Virus record (IMG/VR): IMGVR_UViG_3300011013_000032
Coordinates: 1-39,288 of that record
DNA: 39,288 bases
From: a virus
Direction: 5' to 3' (one strand)
Shown: piece by piece, positions 1,662 to 32,923 of the stretch
How the letters are laid out: every line of letters starts with the position of its first letter
Numbering within the stretch: position 1 is the first letter of the stretch
Position numbers and translations under genes: made by a program
Notes under the pieces: model-generated
Told to the model about the DNA's origin: nothing
What the model saw: the letters and a program-made list of their open reading frames with translations, nothing else
The model's database searches: none

Positions 1662-1749
1662 TCACAGGTACTTAGAGAGTTAACCTTAAGATCTCTTAAG
1701 ATTAGCTTTCTAAGTACCATTAACGCAGAGTTCCTGTGATCTATTTTTT
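1662..1749 (+). terminator. Stem-loop with T-run after the 96-aa early gene
   Basis: GGTACTTAGAGAG (1667-1679) pairs with CTTTCTAAGTACC (1706-1718) with one mismatch, and an outer TCACAG/CTGTGA pair (1662-1667, 1734-1739) is an alternative. TTTTTT follows at 1744-1749. The T-run is also the left arm of the dyad starting at 1741, so the two elements overlap. Confidence 0.5.
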
Positions 1750-1837
1750 GCTTGGTAATTACTTTATCCCTTATAGAATATAATATAAAAAATATTTTAT
1801 TATTATATATAGAAAGTAAGTACGTAGCAAAAATAAG
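1741..1837. repeat. AT-rich long dyad, copy 1
   Basis: An inverted repeat of about 27 bp per arm (1741-1767 against 1811-1837, about 21 of 27 positions matching by hand) flanks an almost pure A/T centre. Each arm carries TTTTTGCT followed, about 7 nt on, by TTACTTT. The whole element aligns over about 90 nt with 38,250-38,339. It lies between the gene ending at 1657 and the helicase gene at 1974. A replication origin, a partition-type site or a regulator site are the main possibilities. Confidence 0.65.
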
Positions 1838-1897
1838 CCAGATCTTTTTTACGGCAACGTGTCTTTACAAAATATCTACTGGTATCTAATTTACGTC

Positions 1898-1975
1898 ATG
1901 GTCGTTTGTTTACTTATCCTCGGGGACGGATGGCTTAAAAACCATGCGAGTAGACGGATAGGAGCAAACGGCCAT
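1898..1975 (+). promoter_or_regulatory. mRNA fold covering the start of the helicase gene
   Basis: ATGGTCGTTTG (1898-1908) can pair with CAAACGGCCAT (1965-1975): 11 pairs with one U-G. TATCC (1914-1918) can pair further in with GGATA (1957-1961), next to the AGGAG at 1960-1964. The fold would bury the AUG at 1974 and part of the ribosome binding site. It suggests translational control of the helicase; this is inferred from complementarity only. Confidence 0.5.
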
Positions 1976-3458
1976 GATTCCCAGTGAAATTTTCAATTCA
2001 ATTAAAGACAAATTAGTTTTAGATGTTACGGCCTCCACAGGTAACGTGCATATTTATTGTGATGGAGAGAAGTATACTTCCAATCAAGTTTTAAAATTTG
2101 GTAATGCCTTGATACCTTATGTGGCCAAAGAGTTACCTGGAAGAGATCTCTCAGGTCTGGCCAAGGACCCAACTAAATATGCGAGCGAAATATTTGCTTT
2201 GGCCAAAGAACAGATGGAAAGCAATCTCTCTTCTGGAGAAGGTTTCTTCACGGACCCAGAGATAGTTAAATTGGCCACTCAGTTTCAGCCTTACATGGAT
2301 TACCAAGACACTTCCAAAACATTAATCTATGATCTTGAGCGAAAGGTGGTAGATGCTCAGTCTTATGACTCCTGGAAGTCCACCGTGAAGGATCACTTAA
2401 TAAATTTACGGAAGGATAAAATAGACGTGAAAGGTCTACGTATGGCCGCAATTTATTTTGATCCTTACTCCAGCACAGAAGTGAAACAAGTTGTTGTTGG
2501 GTCTATGGATATGCCAAGAATAAATTTATATCAAAGGCCGCAGTATTTAGACGTGAAATTAGATTATGATACTTCCACAAAATATGTGGAGATGTTTGAA
2601 AAGTATATGGAACACTTGGTCCCTGATGAGGAGGATCGAGTTTACTGTTATTATTGGATGTATCATTGCATAACTTCCAAGATGCAGTGTTACCTATTTT
2701 TAAAAGGTAAGCAGGGTACAGGTAAAACAGACTTCGCAATGATCTTGAAAGGATTAGTCGGTGAGAATAATTTTACGGCCACTAAGAATAACTTCCTTTC
2801 TACGGAGTTTAATAGCTTCTTAGACAAGAAGCAAGTGGCCTATGCTGATGAGGTTATCTGTAAAAGAGAAGAACACAGAGAGGCTTTTAAAAAGCTTACA
2901 AACGAAACTGTACAAATTGAAGGGAAAGGACAAAATCAAAGGACCGTTAGAAGTTTTTGCAGTTTCTTAATATCAGCAAATCAATATACTAATATTCACA
3001 TCCATCCTGACGATAGACGTTTTAGTATTATCAAATGTACTAGTGCAAAACCTGACGACTCGCTTGGAAAAACCTGGTACTCAGAATTTAGAGATTACTG
3101 GAGAAACGAAGAGTTTCTAAAGGCCGTTAGGGATTTCATTCTTAAACATAACGACGGGAAGTACGACACGTATAATAGACTCCATAATCATGAGTACGAA
3201 ATAGCGGTCGTCGAGTCAGCAAATAAAACTCTTAGAAAAATTTACGATCACTTTGGATTAAGAGAGTCAGAGTCAGAAGAGACAGAAGTTTATTATTCGG
3301 ATATCCGTAAAAAATTAGAGTCCAGTGAAAGACGTTTCTTTTCCACTATTGAAACGGTCAGAGAAAACCTTGAAAGTTTTACATGGTACGGTGAAAAGAT
3401 CTTCAAAGTAGAGTATGACCAGACTATGGAAGATTACTTAATTAGGAAAGTGAAGTGA
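1974..3458 (+). CDS. SF3-type replicative helicase (D5/DUF5906-like)
   Basis: A 494-residue protein whose second half is a superfamily 3 helicase-type AAA+ ATPase: Walker A GKQGTGKT at residues 245-252, Walker B VAYADE near 288-293, and a sensor-like FLISANQ near 330 followed by PDDRRF, the usual arrangement in phage and plasmid D5/DUF5906 primase-helicases. It would unwind DNA for replication as a ring on single strands. I see no clear AEP or TOPRIM primase motif in the N-terminal 200 residues, so a primase activity is uncertain. ATG 1974 follows AGGAG by 9 nt inside a potential stem (1898-1975). Its TGA overlaps the GTG start of the next gene. Confidence 0.85.
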   Translation: MIPSEIFNSIKDKLVLDVTASTGNVHIYCDGEKYTSNQVLKFGNALIPYVAKELPGRDLSGLAKDPTKYASEIFALAKEQMESNLSSGEGFFTDPEIVKLATQFQPYMDYQDTSKTLIYDLERKVVDAQSYDSWKSTVKDHLINLRKDKIDVKGLRMAAIYFDPYSSTEVKQVVVGSMDMPRINLYQRPQYLDVKLDYDTSTKYVEMFEKYMEHLVPDEEDRVYCYYWMYHCITSKMQCYLFLKGKQGTGKTDFAMILKGLVGENNFTATKNNFLSTEFNSFLDKKQVAYADEVICKREEHREAFKKLTNETVQIEGKGQNQRTVRSFCSFLISANQYTNIHIHPDDRRFSIIKCTSAKPDDSLGKTWYSEFRDYWRNEEFLKAVRDFILKHNDGKYDTYNRLHNHEYEIAVVESANKTLRKIYDHFGLRESESEETEVYYSDIRKKLESSERRFFSTIETVRENLESFTWYGEKIFKVEYDQTMEDYLIRKVK

Positions 3459-3763
3459 AATTCAAATGTATTTTCTGTAAGCAGTACCGGTCAGAAGATG
3501 AAATCAGCTCTACAAAAAGTTACCCGGCCAGGAAAGGTCGAGTTTGTAAGTGTTGTCATAACGAAAGGGCCAGAATCTATACCAGAGGATTAAAAGCGAA
3601 AAGTAATCCTACTAATTATTTAGAGTGTGATTCATGTGATTCCATTTTAAATAAATATAAACTCGGTCGACCTAGAAAGGATGGAGTTAGATTAGTTAAT
3701 ACTGAATGTAGATATTGTGGAAGTGCAGAGTTAATAGAATATTTTGGGGGAGGAGATGAATAA
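3455..3763 (+). CDS. Double zinc-finger protein with four CxxC knuckles
   Basis: A 102-residue basic protein with four CxxC pairs: CIFC (residue 5), CKCC (near 31), CDSC (near 59) and CRYC (near 86). Pairs one and two make one zinc ribbon, three and four a second. The first half resembles the Cys-rich finger of phage recombination endonuclease VII-type or HNH-adjacent proteins, but no nuclease motif is present. It starts at GTG 3455, overlapping the helicase stop in GTGA, with AGGA shortly upstream, so it is translationally coupled to the helicase. A DNA-binding accessory role in replication is likely. Confidence 0.7.
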   Translation: MKFKCIFCKQYRSEDEISSTKSYPARKGRVCKCCHNERARIYTRGLKAKSNPTNYLECDSCDSILNKYKLGRPRKDGVRLVNTECRYCGSAELIEYFGGGDE

Positions 3764-4100
3764 ACTAAAGGTACTCGACTATGCGATCGAGTGTATCAAT
3801 AGATATGACAAGTTTAAGGAAGGTGAGAGAGTTGGTAACTGTGATATGTGCCGACTTATACCTATTAAACATAGTGAGCCGTTTAACATTGGCCTTGTAG
3901 ATTGTAATAGATGTCCGTTCGGTAAAAGTATATTTTTCGACAAGGTCAATCACTGCAATCATAAGGACTATATAGACAACTTTGGGTGCTGGGCTAGGAT
4001 TAACGGCAAAAATATAAAAGCATGGCAAAAGGAACTCATTAAGCGCACTATTTCTTGGTGTGAGCGAGAGTTGCCAGAATATACAATTGAGGTGGTGTGA
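3756..4100 (+). CDS. Hypothetical Cys-rich protein
   Basis: About 114 residues with CDMC, CNRCPFG, a later CNH and a GCW, a set of Cys that could hold a metal or a 4Fe-4S cluster. No catalytic motif is recognised. A TTG at 3744 would add four residues. ATG 3756 has a GGAGGAG directly against it, so the exact start is unsure. The 5' end overlaps the previous gene and the TGA overlaps the next ATG (TGATG). This is where the GGCC-poor segment begins; only one GGCC lies inside it. Confidence 0.65.
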   Translation: MNKLKVLDYAIECINRYDKFKEGERVGNCDMCRLIPIKHSEPFNIGLVDCNRCPFGKSIFFDKVNHCNHKDYIDNFGCWARINGKNIKAWQKELIKRTISWCERELPEYTIEVV

Positions 4101-4723
4101 TGGAAGTAAACACAGAATTTATAAAACAGTTCGATCCTTGTAAGGATGGTTTTGAAAATTGGTTAGATAAATACGAGAACTGGGAAGGAAGTGTTTTAGA
4201 GTTTCTAGAATTAGACTTACCTATAGATGATATATTTTGGCTTGTTCTTAGAGAAGAAATTATCCCAGAGAAAGAGTTACACCTATTAGCCTGTGACTTT
4301 GCCGAGAAGGTTTTACCTATATTTGAAGAACAGTACCCAGATGATAAACGTCCAAGAGAAGTAATTGAAGCTAAAAGGAAGTATATTAAACGTGAGGTAA
4401 CCAAAGAAGAATTGGATGCTGCTAGGGATGCTGCTAGGGATGCTGTTAGGGTTGCTGCTAGGGATGCTGCTAGGGTTGCTGTTAGGGTTGCTGTTAGGGT
4501 TGCTGTTAGGGTTGCTGCTGCTAGGGTTGCTGTTAGGGTTGCTGCTAGGGATGCTGCTGCTAGGGTTGCTGCTAGGGATGCTGCTAGTGTTGCTGTTAGG
4601 GTTGCTGTTAGGGTTGCTAGGGTTGCTGTTAGGGTTGCTGCTAGGGATGCTGCTAGGGATGCTGCTGCTAAACAAGAACAACTAGAAATGGTTAAAGAAT
4701 TAGTTAAGAGGTTAGAGTTATGA
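4100..4723 (+). CDS. Imm5-like putative immunity protein with Ala/Arg repeat tail
   Basis: The first 105 residues match, from memory of the family, the phage-borne putative immunity protein (Imm5) pattern: an N-terminal PCKDG..NWL, a D-I-F-W-L segment, LACDFAEKVLPIFE, then YPDDKRPREVIEAKR. In that family an Ala-rich repeat tail follows; here residues 107-190 are 20 four-residue units (A-A/V-R-D/V). The domain is named for polymorphic-toxin immunity, though its job in phages is unproven. ATG 4100 sits 8 nt after GAGG and overlaps the previous stop (TGATG). Every Ala codon in the tail is GCT and nearly every Arg codon AGG, so the tract expanded recently. The C-terminus returns to a charged helix (KQEQLEMVKELVKRLEL). 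Confidence 0.75.
   Translation: MEVNTEFIKQFDPCKDGFENWLDKYENWEGSVLEFLELDLPIDDIFWLVLREEIIPEKELHLLACDFAEKVLPIFEEQYPDDKRPREVIEAKRKYIKREVTKEELDAARDAARDAVRVAARDAARVAVRVAVRVAVRVAAARVAVRVAARDAAARVAARDAASVAVRVAVRVARVAVRVAARDAARDAAAKQEQLEMVKELVKRLEL
4418..4669 (+). repeat. Tandem 12-bp repeat tract (20 units) inside the immunity-like gene
   Basis: 84 codons made only of GCT, GTT, GAT and AGG (plus one AGT), arranged as 17 four-codon units, two five-codon and one three-codon unit. Consensus GCTGCTAGGGAT or GCTGTTAGGGTT. Because lengths are multiples of three, gain or loss of units keeps the frame. The +2 frame (4416-4685) and one antisense frame (4313-4681) also stay open, as shadows of the repeat. Confidence 0.95.
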
Positions 4724-5076
4724 TGGAAGAACGAGATTTCTTCGATTTAAAAATCGGGCAGAAGATTTACTATCAAGGCAAAGAGGTTGAAATAGATTTT
4801 TTAGGTAAAGTTAGATTCGCCAAAATAGCTTTTACCCACCTTAATTTTAGGGAAAATTTTAGAGATATAATGGAGCATCTATCCTTCGACCCACCTAAGG
4901 TTAAAAAGAAGTATTGGTTGTGGAAGTATGACGAAGGCGCAGGTTGGAGTAGAGGTTTCTATTACAGGGATGACACCGGGTACTGTACTAATGGCCGCAA
5001 GTTCAAGGGTGCTTTAGGTTGGAACGACATGAAGAAGATCAAAATAGAGGACGACTTTATAGAGGTGGAGTGGTGA
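4720..5076 (+). CDS. Hypothetical phage protein (118 aa)
   Basis: 118 residues, aromatic-rich. The middle, PPKVKKKYWLWKYDEGAGW, and the C-terminal WNDMKKIKIEDDFIEVEW follow a pattern I associate with small accessory proteins of phages, usually found among exchangeable genes; I cannot name the family. AGAGG at 4707-4711 supports ATG 4720 (ATG 4723 is the alternative), overlapping the previous stop. The stop overlaps the GTG of the next gene. No membrane segment or catalytic motif. Confidence 0.7.
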   Translation: MMEERDFFDLKIGQKIYYQGKEVEIDFLGKVRFAKIAFTHLNFRENFRDIMEHLSFDPPKVKKKYWLWKYDEGAGWSRGFYYRDDTGYCTNGRKFKGALGWNDMKKIKIEDDFIEVEW

Positions 5077-5330
5077 GTACCTATAGAAAAATGGTTAAAG
5101 ATGAATTTAAGTCTCATTGGGAAAATATTGCGATAAACCAATATAAGAACGATATGAAATCAGCACAGCACCATTACTGTGAAGGTTATCACCGAGCATT
5201 TACAAAATCCCAAATCCAACTAACCACCGCAACAAGTATGTTGAAAGAGTTTCAAACTACAGATTGCAAGCAAACATGGTTAGAAGAAATGCACGCTAGT
5301 ATCGAGGCGTTTTTGAGAGAGGTTGAATAA
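5073..5330 (+). CDS. Hypothetical helical protein (85 aa)
   Basis: The frame is open from 5019, but the likely start is GTG 5073: it overlaps the previous stop (GTGA) and has GAGG at 5062-5065. This gives MSTYRKMVKDEFKSHWENIA and a mostly helical 85-residue protein with no known motif. Its TAA overlaps the next ATG (TAATG). The chain of 1-4 bp overlaps suggests one co-translated cassette. Confidence 0.65.
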   Translation: MSTYRKMVKDEFKSHWENIAINQYKNDMKSAQHHYCEGYHRAFTKSQIQLTTATSMLKEFQTTDCKQTWLEEMHASIEAFLREVE

Positions 5331-5758
5331 TGGCAATGGAAAAAGACGAATGGACAAGCGAGGACACTTTCGATCAATTACAGTATGACGTTAAGAAATG
5401 GAAAAATAATTATTTCATGGCGAAGGATAAAATCAAACAACTCGAAGCCGAGAACAGCGACTTAGTAAAATCTAGGGACGTTGCAATCGATTGTATAAGC
5501 CACTCGACGGACGTTATGAGTAAGTTAGGTGATAGAATTAAGCAATTGGAAGAGGAAGCGGTTAAGGATCTTGAGGTTATTAAGTATTATGGAAATCTTG
5601 ATAGTTGGGGTAAAACTAATCAATCGTCAATTAATAGAATCTCTCTCGGTGACTGCACTGCAGAAAGATCTTTTTGTTATAGAGGTGTGTGGGTGAAAGG
5701 GGTTGAGATTGGCGGCAAACGAGCAAGACAACGACTTAAAGAGCGAGGTGTAGAGTGA
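5330..5758 (+). CDS. Hypothetical coiled-coil protein (142 aa)
   Basis: Residues 20-80 form a long charged coiled coil (KIKQLEAENSDLVKSRD and DRIKQLEEEAVKDLEVIK), followed by a compact C-terminal part with C-T-A-E-R-S-F-C and a basic tail (GGKRARQRLKERGVE). GAGAGAGG precedes ATG 5330. It is part of the overlapping island cassette and contains no GGCC. Function unknown. Confidence 0.65.
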   Translation: MAMEKDEWTSEDTFDQLQYDVKKWKNNYFMAKDKIKQLEAENSDLVKSRDVAIDCISHSTDVMSKLGDRIKQLEEEAVKDLEVIKYYGNLDSWGKTNQSSINRISLGDCTAERSFCYRGVWVKGVEIGGKRARQRLKERGVE

Positions 5759-6057
5759 GTTTAATTGACATTATTCTAGATAAAAGAAACTTTGAGCTTA
5801 AACAAGCTTACGCACCTAGCGATATACTGTTGAACGATGTAGCCGCCACGCAATTGTACTATGAGCATATTCACTTTTTTAAAATGCAAATACCTAGAGA
5901 AGACATATTAAAACCTAAGTGGGAAATAGTTAATAATGGTTTACTGTATGGAATGACGATAACTGTAATTGAATCAGGAAGTACAGAGCCAATTATAAAG
6001 GTTTACTCTAAAAAAAAACGAGTAGAAAATCAAGAAACTAGTAAGAGAGATGCTTAG
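5755..6057 (+). CDS. Hypothetical protein (100 aa)
   Basis: GTG 5755 overlaps the previous TGA (GTGA), with GAGCGAGG upstream. The product has an N-terminal helix, a middle KWEIVNNGLLYGMTITVIES that looks like beta strands, and a Lys-rich end. No family recognised. Last gene of the overlapping run; an intergenic stretch with a flanking repeat (6069-6097) follows. Confidence 0.6.
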   Translation: MSLIDIILDKRNFELKQAYAPSDILLNDVAATQLYYEHIHFFKMQIPREDILKPKWEIVNNGLLYGMTITVIESGSTEPIIKVYSKKKRVENQETSKRDA

Positions 6058-6068
6058 GGCTGTACCGT

Positions 6069-6097
6069 ATAATATTGATTATCGGGTAGAAAAATAG
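6069..6097 (+). repeat. 29-bp flanking repeat, left copy
   Basis: This segment matches 6396-6424 at about 23 of 29 positions by hand, sharing ATAATA, ATTAT, GGTAGAA and AATAG in order. The two copies bracket the gene at 6109-6399. Confidence 0.5.
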
Positions 6098-6108
6098 GAG
6101 GTAAGTGT

Positions 6109-6399
6109 ATGATTTTTACATTAGGGATAATTTTAAGCCCTTATAGTATGTTAACATTTTTTTTAAAACCTTTTTTTAAAGGACATATATCTATAGGTAG
6201 GATTACGGTCTATGGATTTAACGCAATGAAGTTCGCTCTTAATATTAAAGTTAGTGAAAAGTACCTATGTGTTAGACCATGGGTTTTCGAGAATAAATTT
6301 TTATGGAGTCCATATTTATATCTAAGTCCCGATGGGACGCCTGGTAGTGCTGTTTTTGGTGTAGGTAAAAGATTTAAAAGATTTAAGTATGTCCGATAA
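6109..6399 (+). CDS. Small protein with hydrophobic N-terminus
   Basis: 96 residues: the first 25 (MIFTLGIILSPYSMLTFFLK) form one probable membrane or signal segment, followed by a basic, Tyr/Phe-rich domain ending RFKRFKYVR. A strong AGGAGG (6096-6101) precedes ATG 6109. It is flanked by an imperfect 29-bp direct repeat and separated from both neighbours, so it looks like an independently gained gene. A membrane-acting role (for example superinfection exclusion) is possible from its shape but not shown. Confidence 0.6.
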   Translation: MIFTLGIILSPYSMLTFFLKPFFKGHISIGRITVYGFNAMKFALNIKVSEKYLCVRPWVFENKFLWSPYLYLSPDGTPGSAVFGVGKRFKRFKYVR

Positions 6400-6424
6400 T
6401 AGCAATTATGCGGTAGAAGAATAG
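6396..6424 (+). repeat. 29-bp flanking repeat, right copy
   Basis: Partner of 6069-6097. It begins inside the stop codon region of the 96-aa gene, as expected if gene and repeat moved together or if the repeat is a regulatory element copied with each gene. Confidence 0.5.
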
Positions 6425-6458
6425 CACGGTTTTATGAGGATGAAAGGACGGTTTACAC

Positions 6459-6487
6459 TTGACAATTAAAATTCTAAAAGGTTTTAT
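6459..6487 (+). promoter_or_regulatory. Candidate promoter for the polymerase gene
   Basis: A perfect TTGACA (6459-6464) is followed after 17 bp by a poor -10 (TTTTAT, 6482-6487). It would restore expression of the polymerase downstream of the accessory island. The weak -10 keeps this tentative. Confidence 0.35.
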
Positions 6488-6569
6488 GTCTAAAATTATT
6501 CTTATTATTGGTTGTTTATGTATTGTTATATTGATTTTGAATTTAATAAAGTTACTAATCCTAAATTAA
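6486..6569 (+). other. Possible 27-codon hydrophobic leader frame overlapping the polymerase start
   Basis: ATG 6486 follows AAAAGG at a workable spacing and encodes an almost wholly hydrophobic peptide (MSKIILIIGCLCIVILILNL and seven more residues) ending at TAA 6567-6569, in a different frame from the polymerase. It could modulate polymerase translation, or be a chance frame in AT-rich DNA. Confidence 0.2.
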
Positions 6570-8539
6570 ATCTCGTTTGTGCAGTTTTAACAATCCCAGA
6601 AAAAAACATACGACGTAATCACTGGCTTGATTCAGAAGATTCCAGAGAACTTTTAAAAAGAGATATTCTCCACTTGAGAGAGAAAGGTTACACCTTTGTC
6701 GCTTGGAACGTTATCTCCGAGGCCCGTTCTTTTATCTCACTTGGAATAGATCCCGTTAAGTGTTTATGGATTGATCTCTACTTAGAGTACCGTATGTTAA
6801 CTAATCACTGGGATGAATATATGTATGGCCCTCAACTAATAGACGGTCGTAAAGTCACCACGTCGAGGCCAAAAAGTAAGTATGAACAGACGGAGGAGGA
6901 GCGAAAGAAAACTAACTCCTCAAAGCCAAAACATAATCTCTTGGCCGCTACTTATAAGTTGCTTGGGGTAGTTAAAGATTCAGCTCATAAAAATAAAATG
7001 AGAGATCTGATTATATCTAATCCACCTATGTTTTCAGAGGATGAGAAAACCTCCATTTTAGATTACTGTTATGAGGACGTCGAGTTACTACCCGATCTCC
7101 ATAAAGCCATCGACAAAGCTTACATAAGGTCCGGTCTCAATAAGGTCTACATTAAAAACGAATTAGAAGATGACCAGCATGAAAGAGCGGAGTATGCTGC
7201 CAGGTCCGCTATTATGGAAACGAAAGGTTATCCAATAGACACGAAGGCCACTCAGAGGTTTATAGATAACGTGCCAAATATTCTTAAATCTTTGGCCGAA
7301 GATATTAACTCTCAAAACGTCCCTATTAAACCTTTCAAGTGGAATAAGAAGGACCAAAAATATTCAATGAAACAAAAGGTCCTCCAGGATGATTGGATCG
7401 CTCATTTACCACAGGCCAAAAGGTGGATGAAAACAGATACAGGAAAGTACTCTCTATCTCTAGAGGCCATTTCTCGTTTTTTTAATTTCACACACGATTA
7501 TCCTAGAGATAACTTAGGCGCTCAATTAGTTAGATATTTTAAAACAAGGCAATCTTTAAACGGATTTCTTCCAAAACCTAAGAAGAGTAAAAAGAAAAGT
7601 TTTCATGATTACGTTGGAGAGGACGGGAGAGTCCGGTCTTATATGGGTATCTTTGGAAGTCAAAGCTCAAGATCACAGCCGGCGGCCACTGGTTTTATTC
7701 CTTTAAAGGCCGCTTGGATGAGACGGTTTATTCTAGCTCCTCCAGGTAAAGCTATCTGCGGGATTGATTACGGATCACAGGAGTTTTTAATTTCTGCTTT
7801 AGTTTCTAAAGATGAAAATATGGTCGAGGCCTATAGGTCAGGAGATGTCTATCTCCACTTCGCAAAGTTGGCCGGTGCAGTTCCATTGGAAGGTACTAAG
7901 AAAGAGTATGCTAAAGAGAGAGATCTTTTTAAATCTACTACTCTCGGTATCTCCTACAATATGGGAGCTGAGTCTTTAGCAGTGAAACTGACAAATGATA
8001 CAGGTATCCCACAGACAGAAGCAGATGCTCAAAAACTGATACAAAAATTTCAAAAGGCCTACCCTAAGTTCAAAGATTGGAATCAAGATAATCTCTTGGA
8101 GTATATAAAAAACAATTACATGGCACTCCCAGATAAATGGATATTATGGGGAGATCAAGATAATTGGAGAAGTTGCAACAACTTTCCTATTCAGGGGAGA
8201 GGAGCAACGATAATGCGAAAGGCGGTTGCGTATGCACAGGACGAAGGATTGGATGTTATTTACACTTTACACGATGCTCTTTATATCGAGTATGATTCAG
8301 ATGACCTTAGGGCCGTGGATACTTTGGCACGGTCTATGCGAAGAGCCTTTGTGGATACTTTTGACGGTGACCCTGACGCTGACCTCATTCGTTTGGACGC
8401 CAATATCTGGGGTCGCAACTATACAGATGGGAAGGTCATTACTCCAGAAGGTATGGAAGTAAAACAACAAAAATATTATATAGACGGTAGAGCTATAAAT
8501 GATTACGAAAGATTTAAAAAATACTTCGAGGAGGAGTAA
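6518..8539 (+). CDS. Family A DNA polymerase with 3'-5' exonuclease domain
   Basis: About 673 residues. The N-terminus has exonuclease motif I (YIDFEF, Asp and Glu at about residues 6-8), a motif II-like AWNVISE near 67-75 and YCYEDVELL near 185. The palm has motif A GIDYGSQEF near 415, motif B (RDLFKSTTLGISYNMG) near 470 and motif C TLHDALYIEY near 583, where the usual HDE is HDA. It is the phage replicative polymerase. The start is uncertain: ATG 6518 lacks a good ribosome binding site (TTG 6512 is an alternative), and the best AAAAGG upstream is placed for an overlapping 27-codon frame at 6486. The stop overlaps the next ATG. Confidence 0.92.
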   Translation: MYCYIDFEFNKVTNPKLNLVCAVLTIPEKNIRRNHWLDSEDSRELLKRDILHLREKGYTFVAWNVISEARSFISLGIDPVKCLWIDLYLEYRMLTNHWDEYMYGPQLIDGRKVTTSRPKSKYEQTEEERKKTNSSKPKHNLLAATYKLLGVVKDSAHKNKMRDLIISNPPMFSEDEKTSILDYCYEDVELLPDLHKAIDKAYIRSGLNKVYIKNELEDDQHERAEYAARSAIMETKGYPIDTKATQRFIDNVPNILKSLAEDINSQNVPIKPFKWNKKDQKYSMKQKVLQDDWIAHLPQAKRWMKTDTGKYSLSLEAISRFFNFTHDYPRDNLGAQLVRYFKTRQSLNGFLPKPKKSKKKSFHDYVGEDGRVRSYMGIFGSQSSRSQPAATGFIPLKAAWMRRFILAPPGKAICGIDYGSQEFLISALVSKDENMVEAYRSGDVYLHFAKLAGAVPLEGTKKEYAKERDLFKSTTLGISYNMGAESLAVKLTNDTGIPQTEADAQKLIQKFQKAYPKFKDWNQDNLLEYIKNNYMALPDKWILWGDQDNWRSCNNFPIQGRGATIMRKAVAYAQDEGLDVIYTLHDALYIEYDSDDLRAVDTLARSMRRAFVDTFDGDPDADLIRLDANIWGRNYTDGKVITPEGMEVKQQKYYIDGRAINDYERFKKYFEEE

Positions 8540-8835
8540 TGCAGTTAACAGATAGTACGAGAATTGTAGCGTTATTAAACTCTATAAATGAAAGTTACAA
8601 AAGACATGACGTTAAAAGTTGGGGAGAGAAATTAAAGAAAGTACCTCCTGGCAATAAAAACTTGGCCAAGAAAATTAGAGAAGGAAACGTCATGCTTTTG
8701 GCCGACATTGAAGGAACGTGTGCAGTATCTCAGCTAAACGATTTTAGAGACTACACATTTTTAACCCACCTATACGCTTTGGCCCCAACTTTGGCCAAAG
8801 AGATAGATATATTAGATAAAATTATTAAGGAGTAA
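8539..8835 (+). CDS. Hypothetical protein coupled to the polymerase (98 aa)
   Basis: ATG 8539 overlaps the polymerase stop (TAATG) and has GAGGAGGAG just before it. The 98-residue product is helical and basic in the first half (SYKRHDVKSWGEKLKKVPPG) and Leu/Ala-rich later. No motif recognised. Its position between polymerase and the SSB-like gene suggests a replication accessory role. Confidence 0.65.
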   Translation: MQLTDSTRIVALLNSINESYKRHDVKSWGEKLKKVPPGNKNLAKKIREGNVMLLADIEGTCAVSQLNDFRDYTFLTHLYALAPTLAKEIDILDKIIKE

Positions 8836-8838
8836 ATT

Positions 8839-9189
8839 ATGGAATTTGAAAGCGTTAAACCAAGAGTAGAGTTTTTATTAAGAAAGAATCTTCCAGCACC
8901 TGGAAACGTTGTTGTAGAAGGTACTTTCAGCGGATCTCACGAAGGAAAACACGGGACTTACCATGCAATCAAAACTACAGAAGGATTGAAAGGATTGCCT
9001 GGGTCTAGAATTTTAGACGAAGCTTTTGAAGAAGTTTCTAAAGGTGAACAAGTTAGAGTTGTTTACAATGGGGAGGCTACTTCTCAAGCTGGAAATATGT
9101 ATCAGACTTTTGACGTCCAAGTTGCTAGAGAAACTCAACTTCCTTTACCTACTGTAGAGACAGAAGATGAAGAACTCAATTTGGATTAA
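8839..9189 (+). CDS. Putative single-stranded DNA-binding protein
   Basis: 116 residues with a beta-rich core (GNVVVEGTFSGSHEGKHG, then EQVRVVYNGEATS and MYQTFDVQVA) that would suit an OB fold, followed by a short acidic tail ending ETEDEELNLD. A beta-barrel plus an acidic tail with a terminal hydrophobic residue is the plan of SSB proteins, whose tail recruits partners. It lies between polymerase and nuclease genes and is followed by a strong hairpin, as often seen for abundant SSBs. AAGGAG before ATG 8839 is well placed. Family membership is inferred from shape and context, not from a clear motif. Confidence 0.5.
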   Translation: MEFESVKPRVEFLLRKNLPAPGNVVVEGTFSGSHEGKHGTYHAIKTTEGLKGLPGSRILDEAFEEVSKGEQVRVVYNGEATSQAGNMYQTFDVQVARETQLPLPTVETEDEELNLD

Positions 9190-9215
9190 TAGACTGTATT
9201 TAACAGTACTTATTT

Positions 9216-9250
9216 GTCTAGTCCTAGGGGCGGCCCTCCTAGAGCTAGAC
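9216..9250 (+). other. Strong stem-loop between SSB-like and nuclease genes
   Basis: Left arm 9216-9230 (GTCTAG..CTAGG) pairs with right arm 9235-9250 (CCTCCTAG..CTAGAC), about 13 pairs with two small irregularities. No T-run follows. It could partly stop transcription or protect the 3' end of the SSB-like message. A smaller ACTGT/ACAGT hairpin lies at 9193-9207. Confidence 0.55.
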
Positions 9251-9269
9251 CTTGCTTTGAAGGTTTTAA

Positions 9270-10130
9270 ATGAAAATTGATACTAGATTAAGTTACAGTA
9301 GTGCCACTTTACTATCAAACTGTAGTACGAAGTATTGGCATTACAAGGTTAATAAAACGTCAAAAGATGCCGACGTTACTGATGATTACGTCCACTTTAA
9401 TATCGGGAAAGCTTTTCATCAGGTTTTAGAAGATACTAACCATACCCAGGATAATATTAAACATAGAGTTAATATGTCATGTGATAGATACACGGTCCAC
9501 GAACATCAGGCCATGATCCACGCTATGGTTTTAAAATATTTAAAAGTACACGAAGCTTCTGGCCTAGAGTGTATTGGCTGCGAATTAGAAATTAACAACG
9601 ATATCTTCGTCGGTTTCATCGATGCTATTATGAAAGATGAGGACGGTAATTGGTGGATTGTCGACTTAAAGACTGCAGCCTTTGTTACTGACTTAACTTT
9701 CGCAAAACTAACAGCGGATACTCAGCTAAATCTATACGCTTCTTTTAAAGAAGATATCGCTAGCTATTATAAATTGGATCCAAATAAGTTTGCTGGAGCT
9801 AGGTATAGAGTTACTAAGAAGAGTAAACTGAAACAAAAAAAGACAGAAGAGTATAACGAGTTTGTAAAAAGGATCTATGACAATATAGAGTCATATGATG
9901 CTATCATCCCTGTAGAGTTAATGAAGCCAGAGGAGTTTTATAAAAAACATAAAAAACTTCACGACCTATCTATAGAACTAAGGACCGGAGAAGCTGCTCC
10001 AAGGCCTAACTTTAGTTATTGTGATGCTTTCTTCAAATCGTGTGAGTACTTCTCACAATGCCACGGCGGTAAAACTAAGACTGAGTCAGTGGACTCAATT
10101 GAAGTGTTAACTTGGGAGAAGTTGAAGTAG
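9270..10130 (+). CDS. PD-(D/E)XK nuclease, Cas4/RecB type
   Basis: 286 residues. N-terminal GKAFHQVLE (about 50), GFIDAI near 113 and VDLKTA near 130 give the D..(D)xK nuclease core; QLNLYA follows as the usual QxxxY motif. Cys 18 (LLSNCSTKYW) plus a C-terminal CDAFFKSCEYFSQC group match the one-plus-three Cys layout of the 4Fe-4S cluster in Cas4/AddB-type nucleases. It probably degrades or trims DNA ends during recombination with the neighbouring helicase and resolvase. AAGG precedes ATG 9270. Confidence 0.88.
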   Translation: MKIDTRLSYSSATLLSNCSTKYWHYKVNKTSKDADVTDDYVHFNIGKAFHQVLEDTNHTQDNIKHRVNMSCDRYTVHEHQAMIHAMVLKYLKVHEASGLECIGCELEINNDIFVGFIDAIMKDEDGNWWIVDLKTAAFVTDLTFAKLTADTQLNLYASFKEDIASYYKLDPNKFAGARYRVTKKSKLKQKKTEEYNEFVKRIYDNIESYDAIIPVELMKPEEFYKKHKKLHDLSIELRTGEAAPRPNFSYCDAFFKSCEYFSQCHGGKTKTESVDSIEVLTWEKLK

Positions 10131-28879: not shown

Positions 28880-29638
28880 TTAGGCCCTATAGTACTCAAG
28901 CGAACACATGAACTTGTGTTGTAGTCCCGCTGCGTGGTGTACTCTAATTTGTATCATGTTCATATCGGCACCTACACCGATGTCCTTGTTAATCATTTTG
29001 GATGATTCCCCATCAATATGAATGACGCCTTGAAATTCTTCTAGATCTAACCCACCAATAAATTCAGAATATAAATCAACACCTACGTTTGTTATATCTT
29101 CTTTCGTTCCTGAGAAGTTACCTATACCAACACCGATATTACAAATATCTGTAGCATAAGCCTTGTTATAAATAGTGCCTTTTAGAATATCGAAATCGTA
29201 TGTTGGTTTTATTGTAACTCTTGTTTCAACAATATTAGCTTGATCGGCAACATAGTCAGTGACTAGCGAACCGTCTGCTTTAAGGTGCTTAACAGTATAT
29301 ATACACCTATCTTCATTTTTAAAAGTCTTCATGCTTACTGAGTTCGTCTCGGTAGCCGTTATAATAGTCGTCATGTGTGAGAGGAACTTCCATCCCTTCT
29401 CTGTCATAGCTAAACGATATAGAGGTCTTCCGGAGTCATCCGAAACAGTCTTATTTATTTCCCCATACATACTATGGGCCAGGAAATCAGTTTCATCTGA
29501 GCTTCCTAACTCTATTAAACAAAATACTGCTTCGTCTGGCATATAAACTTTTTTAAAAGCACCTTGGTTGACAGCTCTAAGCCTACCGCCTACTGCTTCA
29601 TATATTGCCTTAAACTGTGTGTATGTCATCTTGTGCAT
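28880..29638 (-). CDS. Hypothetical virion-region protein (252 aa)
   Basis: 252 residues with no recognised motif; mixed strands and helices (LKADGSLVTDYVADQ, MIQIRVHHAAGLQHKF). Its ATG overlaps the previous stop (TAATG) and the end overlaps the next gene frame. Contains a single GGCC, fewer than neighbours. It lies among small structural proteins between capsid and tail genes. Confidence 0.55.
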   Translation of the reverse strand: MHKMTYTQFKAIYEAVGGRLRAVNQGAFKKVYMPDEAVFCLIELGSSDETDFLAHSMYGEINKTVSDDSGRPLYRLAMTEKGWKFLSHMTTIITATETNSVSMKTFKNEDRCIYTVKHLKADGSLVTDYVADQANIVETRVTIKPTYDFDILKGTIYNKAYATDICNIGVGIGNFSGTKEDITNVGVDLYSEFIGGLDLEEFQGVIHIDGESSKMINKDIGVGADMNMIQIRVHHAAGLQHKFMCSLEYYRA

Positions 29639-30165
29639 TATAAAATTTCCCTAGATACTGCATGTTTTTTAGCTTTTTTATTGGGGCCGGCGGCTTTTGC
29701 TGATATTTTAAAACTAGTAGAATAATAAATAGGAAATTCGGCTTTATATTGAAGCTTGTTACCGTCATACTCAAAGCCTAAAAAGGATTCCTTACCAGCC
29801 CCATTGAATGTAGAAAATTTCTCAATATCATTTTTAAAGTTTAAATTAAAGGATTCAATACCGTCGATTTCTAACTTTATATCGAGATCATCAGTGCTGA
29901 ACTCAATAAAAAAGGCATACAGTTTACCTTCTTCTGAGGTTTGTTCATATATAGTAGTGTAAACAGAGTTAGATAGGATTATCTCTGTATTACTATGTTC
30001 TACTCTTAAACCACTTTTAACTAAATTAGGAGAAGCCCCACTGGAAAAAGAAGCATCAACTTTTAACCTATCGCCAGTATTACCAATTGTCGTATTGTCT
30101 GTACCGCCGATTACTTTATGTTCATTTTCTGGTGTTAAATCTGAAAAACCACTTACACCACTCAT
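29638..30165 (-). CDS. Structural accessory protein with IGGTDNTTIGNTGDRLKV motif
   Basis: 175 residues. The N-terminal KVIGGTDNTTIGNTGDRLKV is a pattern I associate with phage virion accessory proteins; the rest is a beta-sandwich (LYAFFIEFSTDDLDIKLEID) and the C-terminus is Lys-rich. Probably a decoration or neck-associated protein. Family not named. Confidence 0.55.
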   Translation of the reverse strand: MSGVSGFSDLTPENEHKVIGGTDNTTIGNTGDRLKVDASFSSGASPNLVKSGLRVEHSNTEIILSNSVYTTIYEQTSEEGKLYAFFIEFSTDDLDIKLEIDGIESFNLNFKNDIEKFSTFNGAGKESFLGFEYDGNKLQYKAEFPIYYSTSFKISAKAAGPNKKAKKHAVSREIL

Positions 30166-30386
30166 TTAACATCGCCTTCAGTTACTTTAGGGGCGCCGTT
30201 CAGCATTTCTTGCTTAATAGCATCGTCAATCTTTTGCTCTAAATCATTAAACCAAACAAAAAGTGACGCTACACTAATAGCAGCGTCACCCCTTAATTCT
30301 AGCTTAGACATGGATATAACTTTTTTAAACGCCTTGTACTTTGCCAAGTCATCTCTGTTAAATTTGCTTAAAAGCTTTAATTCCAT
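30162..30386 (-). CDS. Hypothetical helical protein (74 aa)
   Basis: The frame opens at 30,419, but ATG 30,386 is favoured by AAGGA about 5 nt upstream. It encodes MELKLLSKFNRDDLAKYKAF, then an amphipathic helical body. Overlaps the next gene by 4 bp. Function unknown. Confidence 0.6.
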   Translation of the reverse strand: MELKLLSKFNRDDLAKYKAFKKVISMSKLELRGDAAISVASLFVWFNDLEQKIDDAIKQEMLNGAPKVTEGDVK

Positions 30387-30399
30387 ATCTATCCTTTTG

Positions 30400-31008
30400 T
30401 TATGCTGCGTACTCAACAACTCTTAAATCAGCAGAACCAGCCGATGTAATTGCAAAAAGATTTGCACCGTCATCAAGGTTTGCAGAATAAGAAGAACCTT
30501 TTGGAACTTTCATCCCGTTTGCTGCTGAAACTCCAGTTGCTTCTTTTAGGTAAATATCTTGTGACCCTAAATTTTGAACTAAAACTGAAAGTCTACCAAT
30601 TAAAGGTGTTGATACTAATTCTGATTCTGTGGTTGTCGCAGTTTCAGCACTAACCTTCCAAGAAGCATAACCACCTGGAGTAGTTTCTACACTCCAAGTT
30701 CCGCCCTGGTGTGCTGTTACTGAATCACTTGCAAATGCCAAACCTCTGATGTCCAAACCAATAGCATCGACAGTAATTGAACCACCGTTATCAGAAATAT
30801 CCACGGCCCAAACGCCTGACTGTACTGCAGCCACGCTATCGCTAACTGAACTTAAACCTCTTATGTCTAAACCAACTGCGTCCACAGTGATCGAGTTTCC
30901 ACCGTCGTTAAACGATAGGTGTCCAGACGCATCGATCAAAAGATCGTTTGATCCGTCACTAATTTTAATTGAATGTAAAGATGCCTGAATGTCGTCTAAT
31001 GTAATCAT
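30400..31008 (-). CDS. Repeat-containing virion accessory protein
   Basis: 202 residues with two tandem units of about 37 residues (ITVDAVGLDIRGLSSVSDSV and ITVDAIGLDIRGLAFASDSV with their followers) and a C-terminal beta module ending LRVVEYAA. Two further genes downstream end with similar modules (VTVEIIEWA, VTVKILEAA). Possibly a decoration protein or head fibre. AAGG precedes the ATG. Confidence 0.6.
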   Translation of the reverse strand: MITLDDIQASLHSIKISDGSNDLLIDASGHLSFNDGGNSITVDAVGLDIRGLSSVSDSVAAVQSGVWAVDISDNGGSITVDAIGLDIRGLAFASDSVTAHQGGTWSVETTPGGYASWKVSAETATTTESELVSTPLIGRLSVLVQNLGSQDIYLKEATGVSAANGMKVPKGSSYSANLDDGANLFAITSAGSADLRVVEYAA

Positions 31009-31024
31009 TGTTAACCTTCCCTAG

Positions 31025-31351
31025 TTATGCCCACTCTATAATTTCCACCGTGACTCCTGCCACGTCAGATTGTAGAAAAAGCGTTAATGATGTGGCGTTT
31101 AGGCCTTCCTCATTGTAAACCGTGTGAGGTTTTAAAGTAATAAACTTTGTCCCACTTTCTCCAGAATTATAAGCTAACTTTAGTGTAGCACTCTCCCTAC
31201 ATCTGACCAAGAACCTCTTAACGTTTGAAGAGAGAACCTGGCTAACTTCTGTGTTGGCCGTGGCCACTGCTTTATTATAAATTGTCGGATTAGTTACTTC
31301 ACTTAATAAAGTGGTGTCGACTTTTCTGACCGACTGATTAGCTGAGCCCAT
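31025..31351 (-). CDS. Small beta-module virion protein (108 aa)
   Basis: 108 residues, with a beta-sandwich (VKRFLVRCRESATLKLAYN, VYNEEGLNATSLTLFLQ) and the ending VTVEIIEWA shared in form with both neighbours. Likely a paralogous decoration-type protein. Overlaps the upstream gene by 1 bp. Confidence 0.55.
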   Translation of the reverse strand: MGSANQSVRKVDTTLLSEVTNPTIYNKAVATANTEVSQVLSSNVKRFLVRCRESATLKLAYNSGESGTKFITLKPHTVYNEEGLNATSLTLFLQSDVAGVTVEIIEWA

Positions 31352-31773
31352 TAAGCAGCCTCCAGTATTTTTACTGTGACTGTGCCTGATGCGACTATAG
31401 CATAAACTTGGATACTATCCGTTATATCTATATTTAACATTTCTCTTGGAAGGATTTCCCATCCACCGGTTGTCGCTGCATCGTCTGCAGTTACCGTGTT
31501 TGCTGGTCCTATATATAAAGTGGCTGCATTGTCTTTATTCCAAATAATTAAAGTGTTTCTATCTGTAAGAGACGTAGTTGGGATTGCAACAGCTGTAGTA
31601 CCAACCGATACTGTGGTGACTTTCCACTCTTTAGTAAAACCGACAACATTTAAACTACCTTCTCCAATGTTAACACTTCCGGTAACATTTCTGGCCACTT
31701 CTCCGTTAAGGTCTGCAATGAACGAGTTTCCATCGTCCGTTCCTCTATGTCCCGATGGAGGTCTAGCTGCCAA
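31351..31773 (-). CDS. Small beta-module virion protein (140 aa)
   Basis: 140 residues. A flexible N-terminus (MAARPPSGHRGTDDGNSF) precedes a beta domain (TLIIWNKDNAATLYIGPAN) and the ending VYAIVASGTVTVKILEAA. Third member of the related trio. First gene after the terminator at 31,794-31,813, so its expression depends on read-through or on an unseen start. Confidence 0.6.
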   Translation of the reverse strand: MAARPPSGHRGTDDGNSFIADLNGEVARNVTGSVNIGEGSLNVVGFTKEWKVTTVSVGTTAVAIPTTSLTDRNTLIIWNKDNAATLYIGPANTVTADDAATTGGWEILPREMLNIDITDSIQVYAIVASGTVTVKILEAA

Positions 31774-31793
31774 AGTAACTCCTTACTAAAAGA

Positions 31794-31813
31794 GAGGAGG
31801 CCGAAACCTCCTC
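31794..31813 (-). terminator. Terminator closing the capsid transcription unit
   Basis: GAGGAGG (31,813-31,807 reading leftward) and CCTCCTC (31,800-31,794) form a 7-bp GC-rich stem with loop TTTCGG, followed leftward by TCTTTT. It lies between the 75-aa gene and the beta-module genes, so it would stop most capsid transcripts here. Confidence 0.75.
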
Positions 31814-31856
31814 AAATCTTTTATTACAAAGGTGAGGCCCGCTCAGCAACAAAAGA

Positions 31857-32084
31857 CTATCCATTTCGACTCGCTTTCTTTTTAGGCCGCTTCGTCGTGG
31901 TCTTTTTAGTTGTCTCCATGATTTTATCTTGTTTCTCTTCGTGTACACCTTGTACCAAAAAGAAGATATACCATGTGGCCCCTAATTTTTTTATTTCTTG
32001 TATCACGATTGGAAGCTTGATTTTTTCAAGCTCCCTTTCGAGTAATACGATATTATCCCCAGTGATGTGCCTCAATTTCACCAT
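31857..32084 (-). CDS. Small basic-tailed protein coupled to the capsid gene
   Basis: 75 residues, starting 5 bp after the capsid stop, so probably read by re-initiation. The first half is helical (IVLLERELEKIKLPIVIQEI), the C-terminus is very basic (KKTTTKRPKKKASRNG). No motif. Could be a capsid-associated DNA-binding protein or a translation by-product; a frame at 31,763-31,948 on the same strand is considered a shadow. Confidence 0.6.
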   Translation of the reverse strand: MVKLRHITGDNIVLLERELEKIKLPIVIQEIKKLGATWYIFFLVQGVHEEKQDKIMETTKKTTTKRPKKKASRNG

Positions 32085-32089
32085 GGATA

Positions 32090-32923
32090 TTATCCAGAAA
32101 TCTTAACGATTCTTGTATCGTCAAATAATTGATATCCGTAAACAAAGTCAGCAGATACTAAGTATCCATACTTGTTATTAGAATGAAGGTCAGAGATCTT
32201 GATTCTAATATCTTGTTGCATAACTAATTGTAGAGCAGAAGGATGAACAGCAAAACCTGTGTCAGCTGCGATACCATCATGTTCCATGATTTGGAATCCC
32301 ATGAAAGCGTCAGCTACACCTGGTTCAGATAAGTTCCCAGAAGTATAGTCTCTACTCATAACTTTAGCGTCATCAAGGATGTCACCATAGTATTGAGGAT
32401 CAAGAAATAACTTTCTGTTAGTAGTTGGGATAAGAGCTTTTGACATAAGAGTTCTAATTGCCCCTAAGTCAACGGCTGCTAAATCTCCAATTACAGCTGG
32501 AGCGATATCATGATCCGGAGCTAAAGCACTAGGTACTAGAGCAGAGATGATATCGTTTTCTAATTGTTTTCTAATTGAGTAAACTAAAGCTTCTTGAGCT
32601 TCTGCTTGAAAACTCATTGACTGTAGTTGACCTAAGTCAGAAATTTCAAAAGCTGCACTAGCTCTTTTGTTAGCGACGATATTAAACTGAGTTGTATTTA
32701 ACAATTCAGAAGAAAAAGCTACAGTGTCATCTGTTAGGATTTCACCTGTAGGAGCGTTTACTTGGTTAACTCTAACCGTGTCTCCCATATTCTTAATTGC
32801 GCCTTCGTACTCTCTTGAGAAAGTGTTCGCAAATAAAATTTTCGAGCGAAGCTCGTCGTACATTTTTGGTGACCAGATCTCTGGTATTAAATTGGCTAAT
32901 TGTGTTACGCCTGAAGTTGCCAT
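32090..32923 (-). CDS. Major capsid protein (HK97-like fold)
   Basis: 277 residues with the pattern of HK97-fold coats: an N-terminal arm (LANLIPEIWSPKMYDELRSK), an extended loop (GDTVRVNQVNAPTGEILTDD), a spine helix, and a C-terminal A-domain with FMGFQIMEHDGI and FVYGYQLFDDTRIV. It follows the scaffold gene. AGGAG lies 8 nt before the ATG, and a promoter candidate precedes it. No GGCC occurs in this gene. Confidence 0.88.
   Translation of the reverse strand: MATSGVTQLANLIPEIWSPKMYDELRSKILFANTFSREYEGAIKNMGDTVRVNQVNAPTGEILTDDTVAFSSELLNTTQFNIVANKRASAAFEISDLGQLQSMSFQAEAQEALVYSIRKQLENDIISALVPSALAPDHDIAPAVIGDLAAVDLGAIRTLMSKALIPTTNRKLFLDPQYYGDILDDAKVMSRDYTSGNLSEPGVADAFMGFQIMEHDGIAADTGFAVHPSALQLVMQQDIRIKISDLHSNNKYGYLVSADFVYGYQLFDDTRIVKISG

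Follow-up and report, generated by a model that had tools for sequence, protein, structure and literature searches.

Seven small genes in a primase-helicase/polymerase slot lack the GGCC enrichment of the surrounding phage genome

Genes of the slot

The window, by which we mean the whole 39,288-nucleotide stretch of phage DNA analysed, carries a primase/helicase gene (1974..3458, plus strand; DUF5906, VapE-like; Pfam PF19263 3.9e-17, PHROG DNA primase 1.8e-25) and a family A DNA polymerase gene, polA (6518..8539, plus strand; PF00476 6.3e-21), which form the left and right borders of a slot of small co-oriented genes. The first of these (3455..3763, plus strand) encodes a small Cys-rich protein, zinc-ribbon-like by eye, with no tblastn match in phages; the idea of a homing-endonuclease remnant was dropped, its comparison with an HNH protein of the related locus L030 being at chance level. 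The seven genes that follow (3756-6399, plus strand) are referred to as the island. The original prediction described an overlapping cassette of small genes, and the overlaps are confirmed except for the last gene, which stands alone.

Gene 1 (3756..4100) is Cys-rich, has no Pfam or PHROG match and contains a GGCC at 3891. Gene 3 (4720..5076) resembles a slot gene of L030 weakly (26% over 46 aa) and has neither a phage match nor a relative in viral_contigs. Only weak matches were obtained for gene 4 (5073..5330; PHROG, best 0.023), for gene 5 (5330..5758; coiled-coil-like by eye; Pfam and PHROG, best PHROG 0.0013) and for gene 6 (5755..6057; PHROG 0.17, no Pfam match). Gene 7 (6109..6399) is kin of cyanophage proteins (phrog_32401, 2.9e-11): its phage matches are in cyanophages only, namely seven records, all from Nostoc/Anabaena/Dolichospermum phages, with 36-43% identity (best 6e-8). 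It is surrounded by an imperfect 23-nt inverted repeat (left arm 6063..6085, right arm 6393..6415; 78% complementary), the arms of which have a best match of 17/27 elsewhere in the window. Neither an insertion scar nor a duplicated target was visible at either end of the island as a whole, the repeats being found around gene 7 only.

Gene 2 (4100..4723) had been singled out as immunity-like, and it does match Imm5_like over the whole protein (PF21805, 1.6e-9). The match scores 38.1 bits for the whole sequence and 34.1 bits for the first 105 residues alone, both above the cut-off of 25, whereas the Imm5 profile scores 32.3 bits for the whole and falls below its cut-off of 25 without the tail (24.5). 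This tail, rich in Ala/Arg/Val/Asp, corresponds to a 12-bp minisatellite of 20.6 copies (4417..4666, plus strand; TRF score 320), a pattern absent from viral_contigs; codons 105-190 comprise GCT 36, GTT 21, AGG 19, GAT 8, AGT 1 and TTG 1. A single-sequence AlphaFold2 model predicts one long helix at 102-206, at low confidence (mean pLDDT 65.5). Imm5 and Imm5_like immunity proteins of polymorphic toxin systems are described as mostly alpha, with R and D listed for them, and as associated with DYW deaminase and CdiAC toxins (PMC3482391). Gene 2, a putative immunity gene, shares the sequence match. Unlike those proteins, it is phage-borne, its C-terminal half is a repeat of 12-bp units predicted as a single helix, and no toxin family lies beside it among the Pfam matches of the slot. 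PADLOC defence families gave no match in the eight slot proteins. An Imm5_like search of the host group matched 0 of 59 genomes; the control was also without a match anywhere, hence the search is uninformative.

Judging by their position, the island genes likely encode small early accessory proteins acting on the host or on competitors. No match to phages was obtained with blastn of 1974-9900, a promoter scan of 1-12100 gave no excess (27 found, 31.3 expected by shuffles), and no RNA families were found.

GGCC content of the window and of the island

The whole window contains 204 GGCC in its 39,288 bases, with 99 expected. Positions 3900-6715 hold a single one (at 4993), where 15.7 are expected from the density of the rest, and the longest GGCC gap of the window (4993-6721) adjoins the fourth longest (3891-4993). 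This desert, noticed in the original prediction, is a local absence of the genome-wide excess, and the contrast outlasts corrections for codon pairs and expression. A model based on the encoded proteins and on codon pairs elsewhere in the window predicts 12.7 GGCC in the seven genes, against 2 seen (P=4.9e-5, the lowest among 50 overlapping gene runs of the window). Since the repeat unit at 4417-4666 has no room for GGCC, the array explains about half of this deficit; with it removed, 7.7 are expected against 2 seen (P=0.006).

A normal GGCC density outside the island is only partly correct. It holds for the flanking replication genes: Ala following a G-ending codon is encoded by GCC in 9 of 10 cases in the primase/helicase gene and in 12 of 16 in polA. 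The gene at 3455..3763 is normal too (2 seen, 1.9 expected), and GGCC is plentiful at the left end, positions 1-1973, which comprise small genes and a stretch of non-coding DNA. It does not hold for head-region genes on the minus strand (28880..32923), which contain 8 GGCC where 25.8 are expected (P=3e-6).

Chance and composition might be thought sufficient, in that few Ala after G-ending codons and a repeat array leave little room for GGCC. Indeed, only four Ala follow G in the island, and the array accounts for the drop in expectation from 12.7 to 7.7. General composition is unremarkable as well, so that the sliding codon or k-mer shift sought as a check was not found: codon usage, with the array masked, gives G=67.4 for 41 degrees of freedom (1.64 per degree; other runs reach 4.14), and the Karlin delta is 0.051, compared with 0.137-0.164 for the 15 highest of 306 windows. 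However, the deficit is still there without the array, and when the same kind of model was applied to 400 kb of host-type chromosome, the very sequence on which it was trained, P<0.01 was reached in just 1 of 108 runs and P<0.003 in none. Furthermore, the composition-free share, GGCC/(GGCC+GGCT+AGCC), is 2/12 in the island, the lowest among ten regions (core 190/311, left end 15/21; P=0.004), and relative to all GGCN/NGCC the island has 2/28 (P=1e-4). We therefore consider chance and composition unlikely to account for the island. The informative sites number only 12. Leaving out the array puts P between 0.006 and 0.015, and the case for an acquired island, built on a missing lineage mark that expression does not explain, is then of moderate strength.

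A host-type mark and its probable source

A terminase relative is located in a Halobacteriovoraceae MAG and a polA relative in a Silvanigrella phage. The window is most likely a tailed phage of Bacteriovoracales-type marine predatory bacteria. Predatory bacteria in general have few known phages. Bacteriovoracales-type genomes have a GGCC excess that extends to the DNA between genes, with GGCT as the depleted neighbour. In genome G020, GGCC is the top intergenic tetramer (242 against 132.7, both strands), and its ratio at coding phase 2 is 2.90. The palindrome is thus in excess in the host DNA both within and between genes. The mark of the window is similar, not identical, to that of the hosts: the phase-2 ratio is 3.18 (2.90-3.16 in three hosts), phase 0 is also raised (2.31 vs 0.97-1.40), and the odds ratio for GCC after G, 15.9, lies above every host genome sampled.

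Several sources of the excess were rejected. A purely translational codon-context bias disagrees with the excess in intergenic DNA and with its being least in ribosomal-protein genes, and the small flank preference speaks against a longer recognition word. Very short patch repair in E. coli (Dcm/Vsr) leaves one word enriched and its C-to-T neighbour depleted. The signature here is of the same form, with GGCC as the word; unlike in E. coli, the Vsr family has no match in 12 host-group genomes or in the window, which argues against Vsr-type repair.

The excess co-occurs with a conserved cytosine-C5 methyltransferase of the Bacteriovoracales group: genomes rich in the palindrome carry the enzyme, and genomes without such abundance lack it. 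The GGCC ratio exceeds 1.05 in 16 of 16 carriers, a count that leaves out five thinly sampled carriers, two of them below 1, and is 0.80-1.11 in all eight other genomes, a contrast confounded with ancestry and including one non-carrier, G067, with a weak match. The odds ratio for GCC after G is 1.6-11.8 in the 16 carriers, 0.6-1.2 in the eight relatives without the enzyme and 0.0-0.7 in seven controls (one chromosome, six plasmids or second replicons). M.HaeIII is specific for GGCC; the catalytic parts of the methyltransferase match PDB 3g7u with 137.9 bits, M.HaeIII with 133.1 and M.HhaI with 93.7, the recognition domain lying outside these matches. No restriction enzyme was recognised by eye at 12 methyltransferase loci or by Pfam among ten genes that neighbour it at eight loci, and six of the ten lack any match. 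Judging by this co-occurrence, the excess is probably tied to the methyltransferase. Because the excess of the window resembles that of Bacteriovoracales-type genomes and goes with a conserved methyltransferase, we regard GGCC as a host-lineage mark.

There are parallels in cyanobacteria, where HIP1 and alternate HIPs are described as palindromes in genome-wide excess in genomes with a matching orphan methyltransferase, with one-base deviations gathering at outer positions (Elhai 2015, PMC4390886). The GGCC excess likewise accompanies a conserved C5 methyltransferase and depletion of an outer-base neighbour, GGCT. It differs in that the phylum is another one, the word is a 4-mer and not an 8-mer, the excess is milder, the match of enzyme and word is putative, and the mark is used to judge phage genes. 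Another counterpart is M.Ssp6803II of Synechocystis, an N4-cytosine methyltransferase with proven specificity for GGCC (PMC6560206). Both cases combine frequent genomic GGCC sites with a methyltransferase for them, here a candidate and of the C5 type; directional conversion, as far as the cited text goes, is not claimed for M.Ssp6803II.

Slot content among relatives

With polA of the window alone as the query, no relative was found in viral_contigs; with the Silvanigrella phage sequence added, there were 11. These are distant (36-46% identity), so presence and absence are compared between lineages and not between strains. A primase-helicase lies upstream of polA in all 11 (ten by tblastn, L038 by a Pfam VapE-like match, 6.4e-11); L033-L036 are one lineage, and the helicase of L030 is truncated at the contig end. 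The spacer holds 0 to 12 ORFs: five lineages have 0-1 genes there, and three others have 7, 9 and 12. In other words, the flanking order is conserved and the content varies, which agrees with the accessory island originally predicted. Accessory or moron slots of phage replication modules typically hold short co-oriented genes whose functions are not known, which lie between conserved replication genes and vary among relatives; unlike in the usual ones, the content here is also told from the core by a missing host-type DNA mark.

The sole island gene matched in any polA relative is the Imm5_like one, in L039, outside the slot. L039 carries a partial mark, which is also borne by the block that contains the Imm5_like gene of L039 (11 GGCC vs 4 GGCT/AGCC). 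No island like that of the window was found elsewhere, and the terminase relatives, in the stretches examined, have part of the structural genes in common and share no replication gene. Since the gene at 3455..3763 sits in the slot yet is marked normally, the slot was filled in more than one step.

Origin of the island genes

Taken as a whole, the observations are best explained if the genes at 3756-6399 entered the slot recently from DNA without the GGCC mark, which we consider probable. A DNA-level process in the hosts, apparent in coding and intergenic DNA, would raise GGCC at the cost of GGCT, probably through the conserved methyltransferase, beside which no restriction enzyme was recognised. 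The phage core would have taken the same kind of mark, presumably through long residence in such hosts, and the content of the primase-helicase/polA slot turns over among related phages. The seven small genes, including the putative immunity gene with its young minisatellite and the cyanophage-type gene, are, on few sites, unmarked and do not appear highly expressed; most likely they came recently from DNA never exposed to the GGCC-raising process. The earlier suggestion of arrival from another background thus keeps the corrected GGCC contrast and the cyanophage-only kinship of gene 7, but overall composition is unremarkable, roughly half of the deficit comes from the tandem repeat, and no donor came to light (tblastn in phages covered three of the seven island genes, and the genes at 3455 and 4720 had no match). 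In the same host group, acquired regions of Halobacteriovorax marinus were found by shifted modal codon usage (PMC5760749); here, unlike there, general codon use is no outlier and the GGCC mark alone is missing.

More tentatively, and with rather less confidence than in the recent arrival itself, one may propose that Bacteriovoracales own a HIP-like system, in which a vertically kept C5 methyltransferase would accompany directional GGCT-to-GGCC conversion in all but the most expressed genes. Phages would acquire the mark, the composition-free share could serve as a host label and residence clock, and the helicase-polA island would be the first unconverted recent block. It is difficult to assign hosts to metagenomic phages, and a tetramer that separates the Bacteriovoracales group from unrelated bacteria offers a simple label. 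With the mark, native phage genes can also be distinguished from newly arrived ones in cases where ordinary codon statistics reveal little. Should the link to the methyltransferase hold, the long-standing question of what causes HIP palindromes in cyanobacteria would gain another test system, one that can be cultured.

Recent arrival has to be weighed against long residence of fast-evolving genes in which the mark fails to build up. Five of the seven are without a Pfam match and without a convincing one in PHROG (tblastn in phages covered one of these five), and the minisatellite is fast DNA-level change. Nonetheless, five small genes at 2-1657, likewise without a Pfam match, are marked (GCC in 7 of 9 Ala after G), which makes long residence improbable.

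Strong expression is another conceivable cause, as strongly expressed genes shun GCC after G: in ribosomal-protein operons of three hosts it falls to 5/44, 8/38 and 10/37, and across 18 gene runs of the window more ribosomal-like codons go with less GGCC (Spearman -0.74). Yet the similarity of island codons to ribosomal-protein genes (-0.044, -0.128 and -0.043 for the three hosts) falls among the values of the replication genes, and the expression correction still predicts 7.9 GGCC against 2 seen (P=0.015), so that we find this cause quite improbable for the island. It suits the head genes instead: the block of the major head protein (32090-32923, minus strand; PHROGs 1.7e-27) has the most ribosomal-protein-like codons among the groups tested, and that desert likely reflects high expression, a cause different from the island's. 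This second desert and the host-type nature of the enrichment both go beyond the original prediction.

Local selection against GGCC, such as restriction avoidance from an earlier host, is hardly credible: of the 24 terminase-relative loci, 11 (77.7 kb) lack GGCC altogether where 45.8 are expected, and GGCC-avoiding backgrounds therefore exist among related phages, but the island keeps 2 GGCC, close to the 2.2 expected by synonymous shuffle, and its state is missing enrichment, not avoidance. A GGCC-avoiding background as the donor source is compatible with recent arrival.

GGCC in the island and in the rest of the window

The window as a whole is rich in GGCC (204 against 99 expected from its trinucleotides), and the GGCC desert noted at 3900-6715 is real, with one site, at 4993, where the density of the rest would give 15.7. 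Outside the island, 152 of the 189 coding GGCC straddle a codon boundary as G|GCC (41.7 expected for these 152 from synonymous shuffling), and alanine is encoded by GCC in 152 of 211 cases after a G-ending codon against 84 of 616 after other bases. In the island, alanine follows G four times and is never GCC. The contrast survives codon correction: under a codon-pair model of the rest, the seven island genes (3756-6399) have two GGCC against 12.7 expected (P=4.9e-5), or against 7.7 (P=0.006) once the 12-bp array in gene 2 (4417-4666) is removed. The composition-free share, GGCC/(GGCC+GGCT+AGCC), is lowest in the island, 2/12 compared with 190/311 in the core (P=0.004). Among 140 same-length windows of a host-type chromosome the lowest P was 0.0035, compared with 0.0022 for the island against its own core.

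A recently arrived island would lack the host-type GGCC mark that the core carries, and recent arrival is the best explanation of what we observe. The proposed origin in another background is supported by the missing mark, but not by general composition. Codon usage of the island is not outlying (after masking of the array, G is 67.4 for 41 degrees of freedom, or 1.64 per degree, other runs reaching 4.14), and neither are its k-mers (Karlin delta 0.051 against 0.137-0.164 in the 15 highest of 306 windows). That the island is real and accessory has good support; that it is without the host-type mark borne by the core has moderate support, since informative sites are few.

A second GGCC desert covers head-region genes (28880-32923; 8 against 25.8 expected from the codon-pair model). 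With three hosts as reference, the major head protein (identified by PHROGs, 1.7e-27) has the most ribosomal-like codons among the groups tested (+0.065 to +0.114), while island codons score -0.043 to -0.128, similar to replication genes. Over 18 gene runs of the window, GGCC declines as ribosomal-like codon use, our proxy for expression, rises (Spearman -0.74, P=4e-4). This line predicts 7.9 GGCC for the island without the array, where two are seen (P=0.015); the composition-free share of the head genes is 12/28 (P=0.07). The two deserts therefore probably differ in cause: the head desert fits high expression, whereas that of the island does not.

The slot between helicase and polA

The island lies between the primase-helicase (1974..3458) and polA (6518..8539), a slot that in the window holds eight genes. 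As anticipated for an accessory island, its content varies, from 0 to 12 ORFs, among 11 polA relatives (36-46% identity), 10 of which have the helicase upstream of polA by tblastn; the other, locus L038, has a VapE-like ORF. The slot is empty in L032, holds one gene each in L033, L034, L037, L039 and L040, and by tblastn has the same spacing in L035 and L036 as in L033/L034. It is filled in L031 (7 ORFs) and L030 (12 ORFs; plus strand, at least 40 aa for both) and in L038 (9 ORFs of at least 60 aa). Two slot genes are common to L030 and L031 (at 37% and 50%), with one further short match between them (E 0.012), and L030 also has an HNH endonuclease there. For the slot genes of the window, the closest similarity found in the slots of the relatives was 26% across 46 aa, in L030.

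The island genes are co-oriented with the helicase. Described originally as overlapping cassettes, they do overlap by one to eight bases, depending on the start codons chosen, except that gene 7 follows after 51 bases. The immunity-like gene corresponds to gene 2, which without its tail matches Imm5_like; its N-terminal part is matched twice among phages, best in Methanosarcina virus MetMV (31%). The tail is the 12-bp array in 20.6 copies, and codons 105-190 are GCT, GTT, AGG or GAT in 84 of 86 cases, which points to a recent DNA-level expansion. Gene 7, flanked by imperfect inverted repeats, has matches in the phage collection exclusively in phages of filamentous cyanobacteria (7 records). 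In one of these, Dolichospermum phage L140 (2802-4261), the matching gene immediately follows one that carries a DNA-cytosine methyltransferase annotation. Genes 1, 4, 5 and 6 were searched against profiles and the collected loci, and no PADLOC family matched the slot proteins. Any functions of the island genes are putative. The stretch right behind polA (8539-8835) weakly resembles the C-terminal HTH domain of DpnI, at a value (0.0043) that does not reach the cut-off.

No whole-genome relative of the window was found. It has in common with terminase relatives structural genes at best, and with polA relatives replication genes and, in L039, also the Imm5_like gene. In L039, which has a partial mark (share 0.44), this gene precedes the helicase and belongs to a marked block (11 GGCC, 4 GGCT/AGCC); there (6355-7609) it is followed by a gene that by eye is pentapeptide-repeat-like. 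For polA, a Silvanigrella aquatica phage ranks first among 1084 phage records (32.8% identity, 6e-65). Terminase relatives comprise 24 loci in viral_contigs, L023 among them, and a single one, L028 in a Halobacteriovoraceae MAG, among 546 candidate stretches of genome_contigs.

The GGCC mark and a conserved methyltransferase

With both strands counted, no tetramer exceeds expectation in intergenic DNA of the host-group genome G020 more than GGCC (242 against 132.7), and none falls further short of it than GGCT/AGCC (107 against 183.5); five other neighbours are at 0.82-1.10 in a slightly larger set. When other carriers of a cytosine-C5 methyltransferase ortholog are pooled, intergenic GGCC stands at 1.46 times expectation, GGCT at 0.55 and the remaining five tested neighbours at 0.92-1.03, whereas genomes without the ortholog have GGCC at 0.70, GGCT at 1.17 and GGAC at 0.63. 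Flanking bases of GGCC have little influence. This looks like a directional change from GGCT to GGCC in host-group DNA. The window follows the same trend (intergenic GGCC 20 against 11.7, GGCT 5 against 11.7), but unlike the host-group genomes it also has raised phase-0 GGCC (2.31 against 0.97-1.40) and a higher odds ratio for GCC after G (15.9). A translational optimum as the source of the mark is ruled out by its loss in ribosomal-protein operons of three hosts (5/44, 8/38 and 10/37).

Of 59 host-group relatives, 37 (G001, G013-G048) match the ortholog strongly (at least as well as 5e-131), G067 and G070 match it more weakly, and 20 have no match. We sampled 21 genomes with it and eight without. 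Five carriers with fewer than 20 alanines after G were dropped from the test (GGCC observed/expected 0.81 in G026, 0.79 in G046 and 1.32, 1.67 and 2.09 in the others). All 16 retained carriers have GGCC ratios above 1.05 (median 1.57) and odds ratios for GCC after G of 1.6-11.8 (median 4.6). In the eight genomes lacking the ortholog, among them G067 with its weak match, GGCC ratios are 0.80-1.11 and odds ratios 0.6-1.2 (Mann-Whitney P=2.7e-6 for odds ratios); the points are not independent, as the carriers probably form a single clade. Odds ratios of 0.0-0.7 were obtained for seven unrelated controls, of which one is a chromosome and six are plasmids or second replicons. Two carriers, G017 and G024, seemed almost without the mark when only their first 20 kb were taken (1.4 and 1.5), but reached 2.8 and 3.5 with 60 kb.

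Thus, within what is probably one clade, the GGCC mark of these predatory bacteria and their phages is correlated with a conserved methyltransferase, for which we predict GGCC specificity. This link draws on many more sites than the reading of the island. The window itself is without a C5 methyltransferase, and Vsr was not found in it or in 12 host-group genomes. By eye, no restriction enzyme was recognised adjoining the methyltransferase in twelve loci; nor did Pfam identify one in ten genes neighbouring it at eight loci, of which six had no match at all. Elhai's work on highly iterated palindromes of cyanobacteria describes a comparable palindrome-methyltransferase association (PMC4390886). 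A shallow literature search, with the Bdellovibrionota genome papers PMC11656739 and PMC8067016 outside it, found no paper on a GGCC-methyltransferase link in this host group.

Other observations

Opposite to the window, 11 of the 24 terminase-relative loci (L002, L003, L004, L008, L009, L011-L014, L022 and L024; 77.7 kb) have no GGCC against 45.8 expected, which suggests hosts with GGCC-cutting defence. GGCC is likewise absent (70 expected in 45 kb) from the Eubacterium eligens plasmid L076 (NC_012782.1 1-45000), which has many phage genes, and the Silvanigrella phage L007 (CP017838) has no GATC against 71.7 expected in 43.3 kb.

Near the left end of the window, half a kilobase without listed genes (855-1366) had no Rfam match. 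Two pairs of direct repeats in it are exact (1074/1100 and 1121/1217), it contains hairpins with GGGCGAAACCC, and none of 100 shuffles folded as well (z -2.6). It may be an origin, a regulatory RNA or an iteron region.
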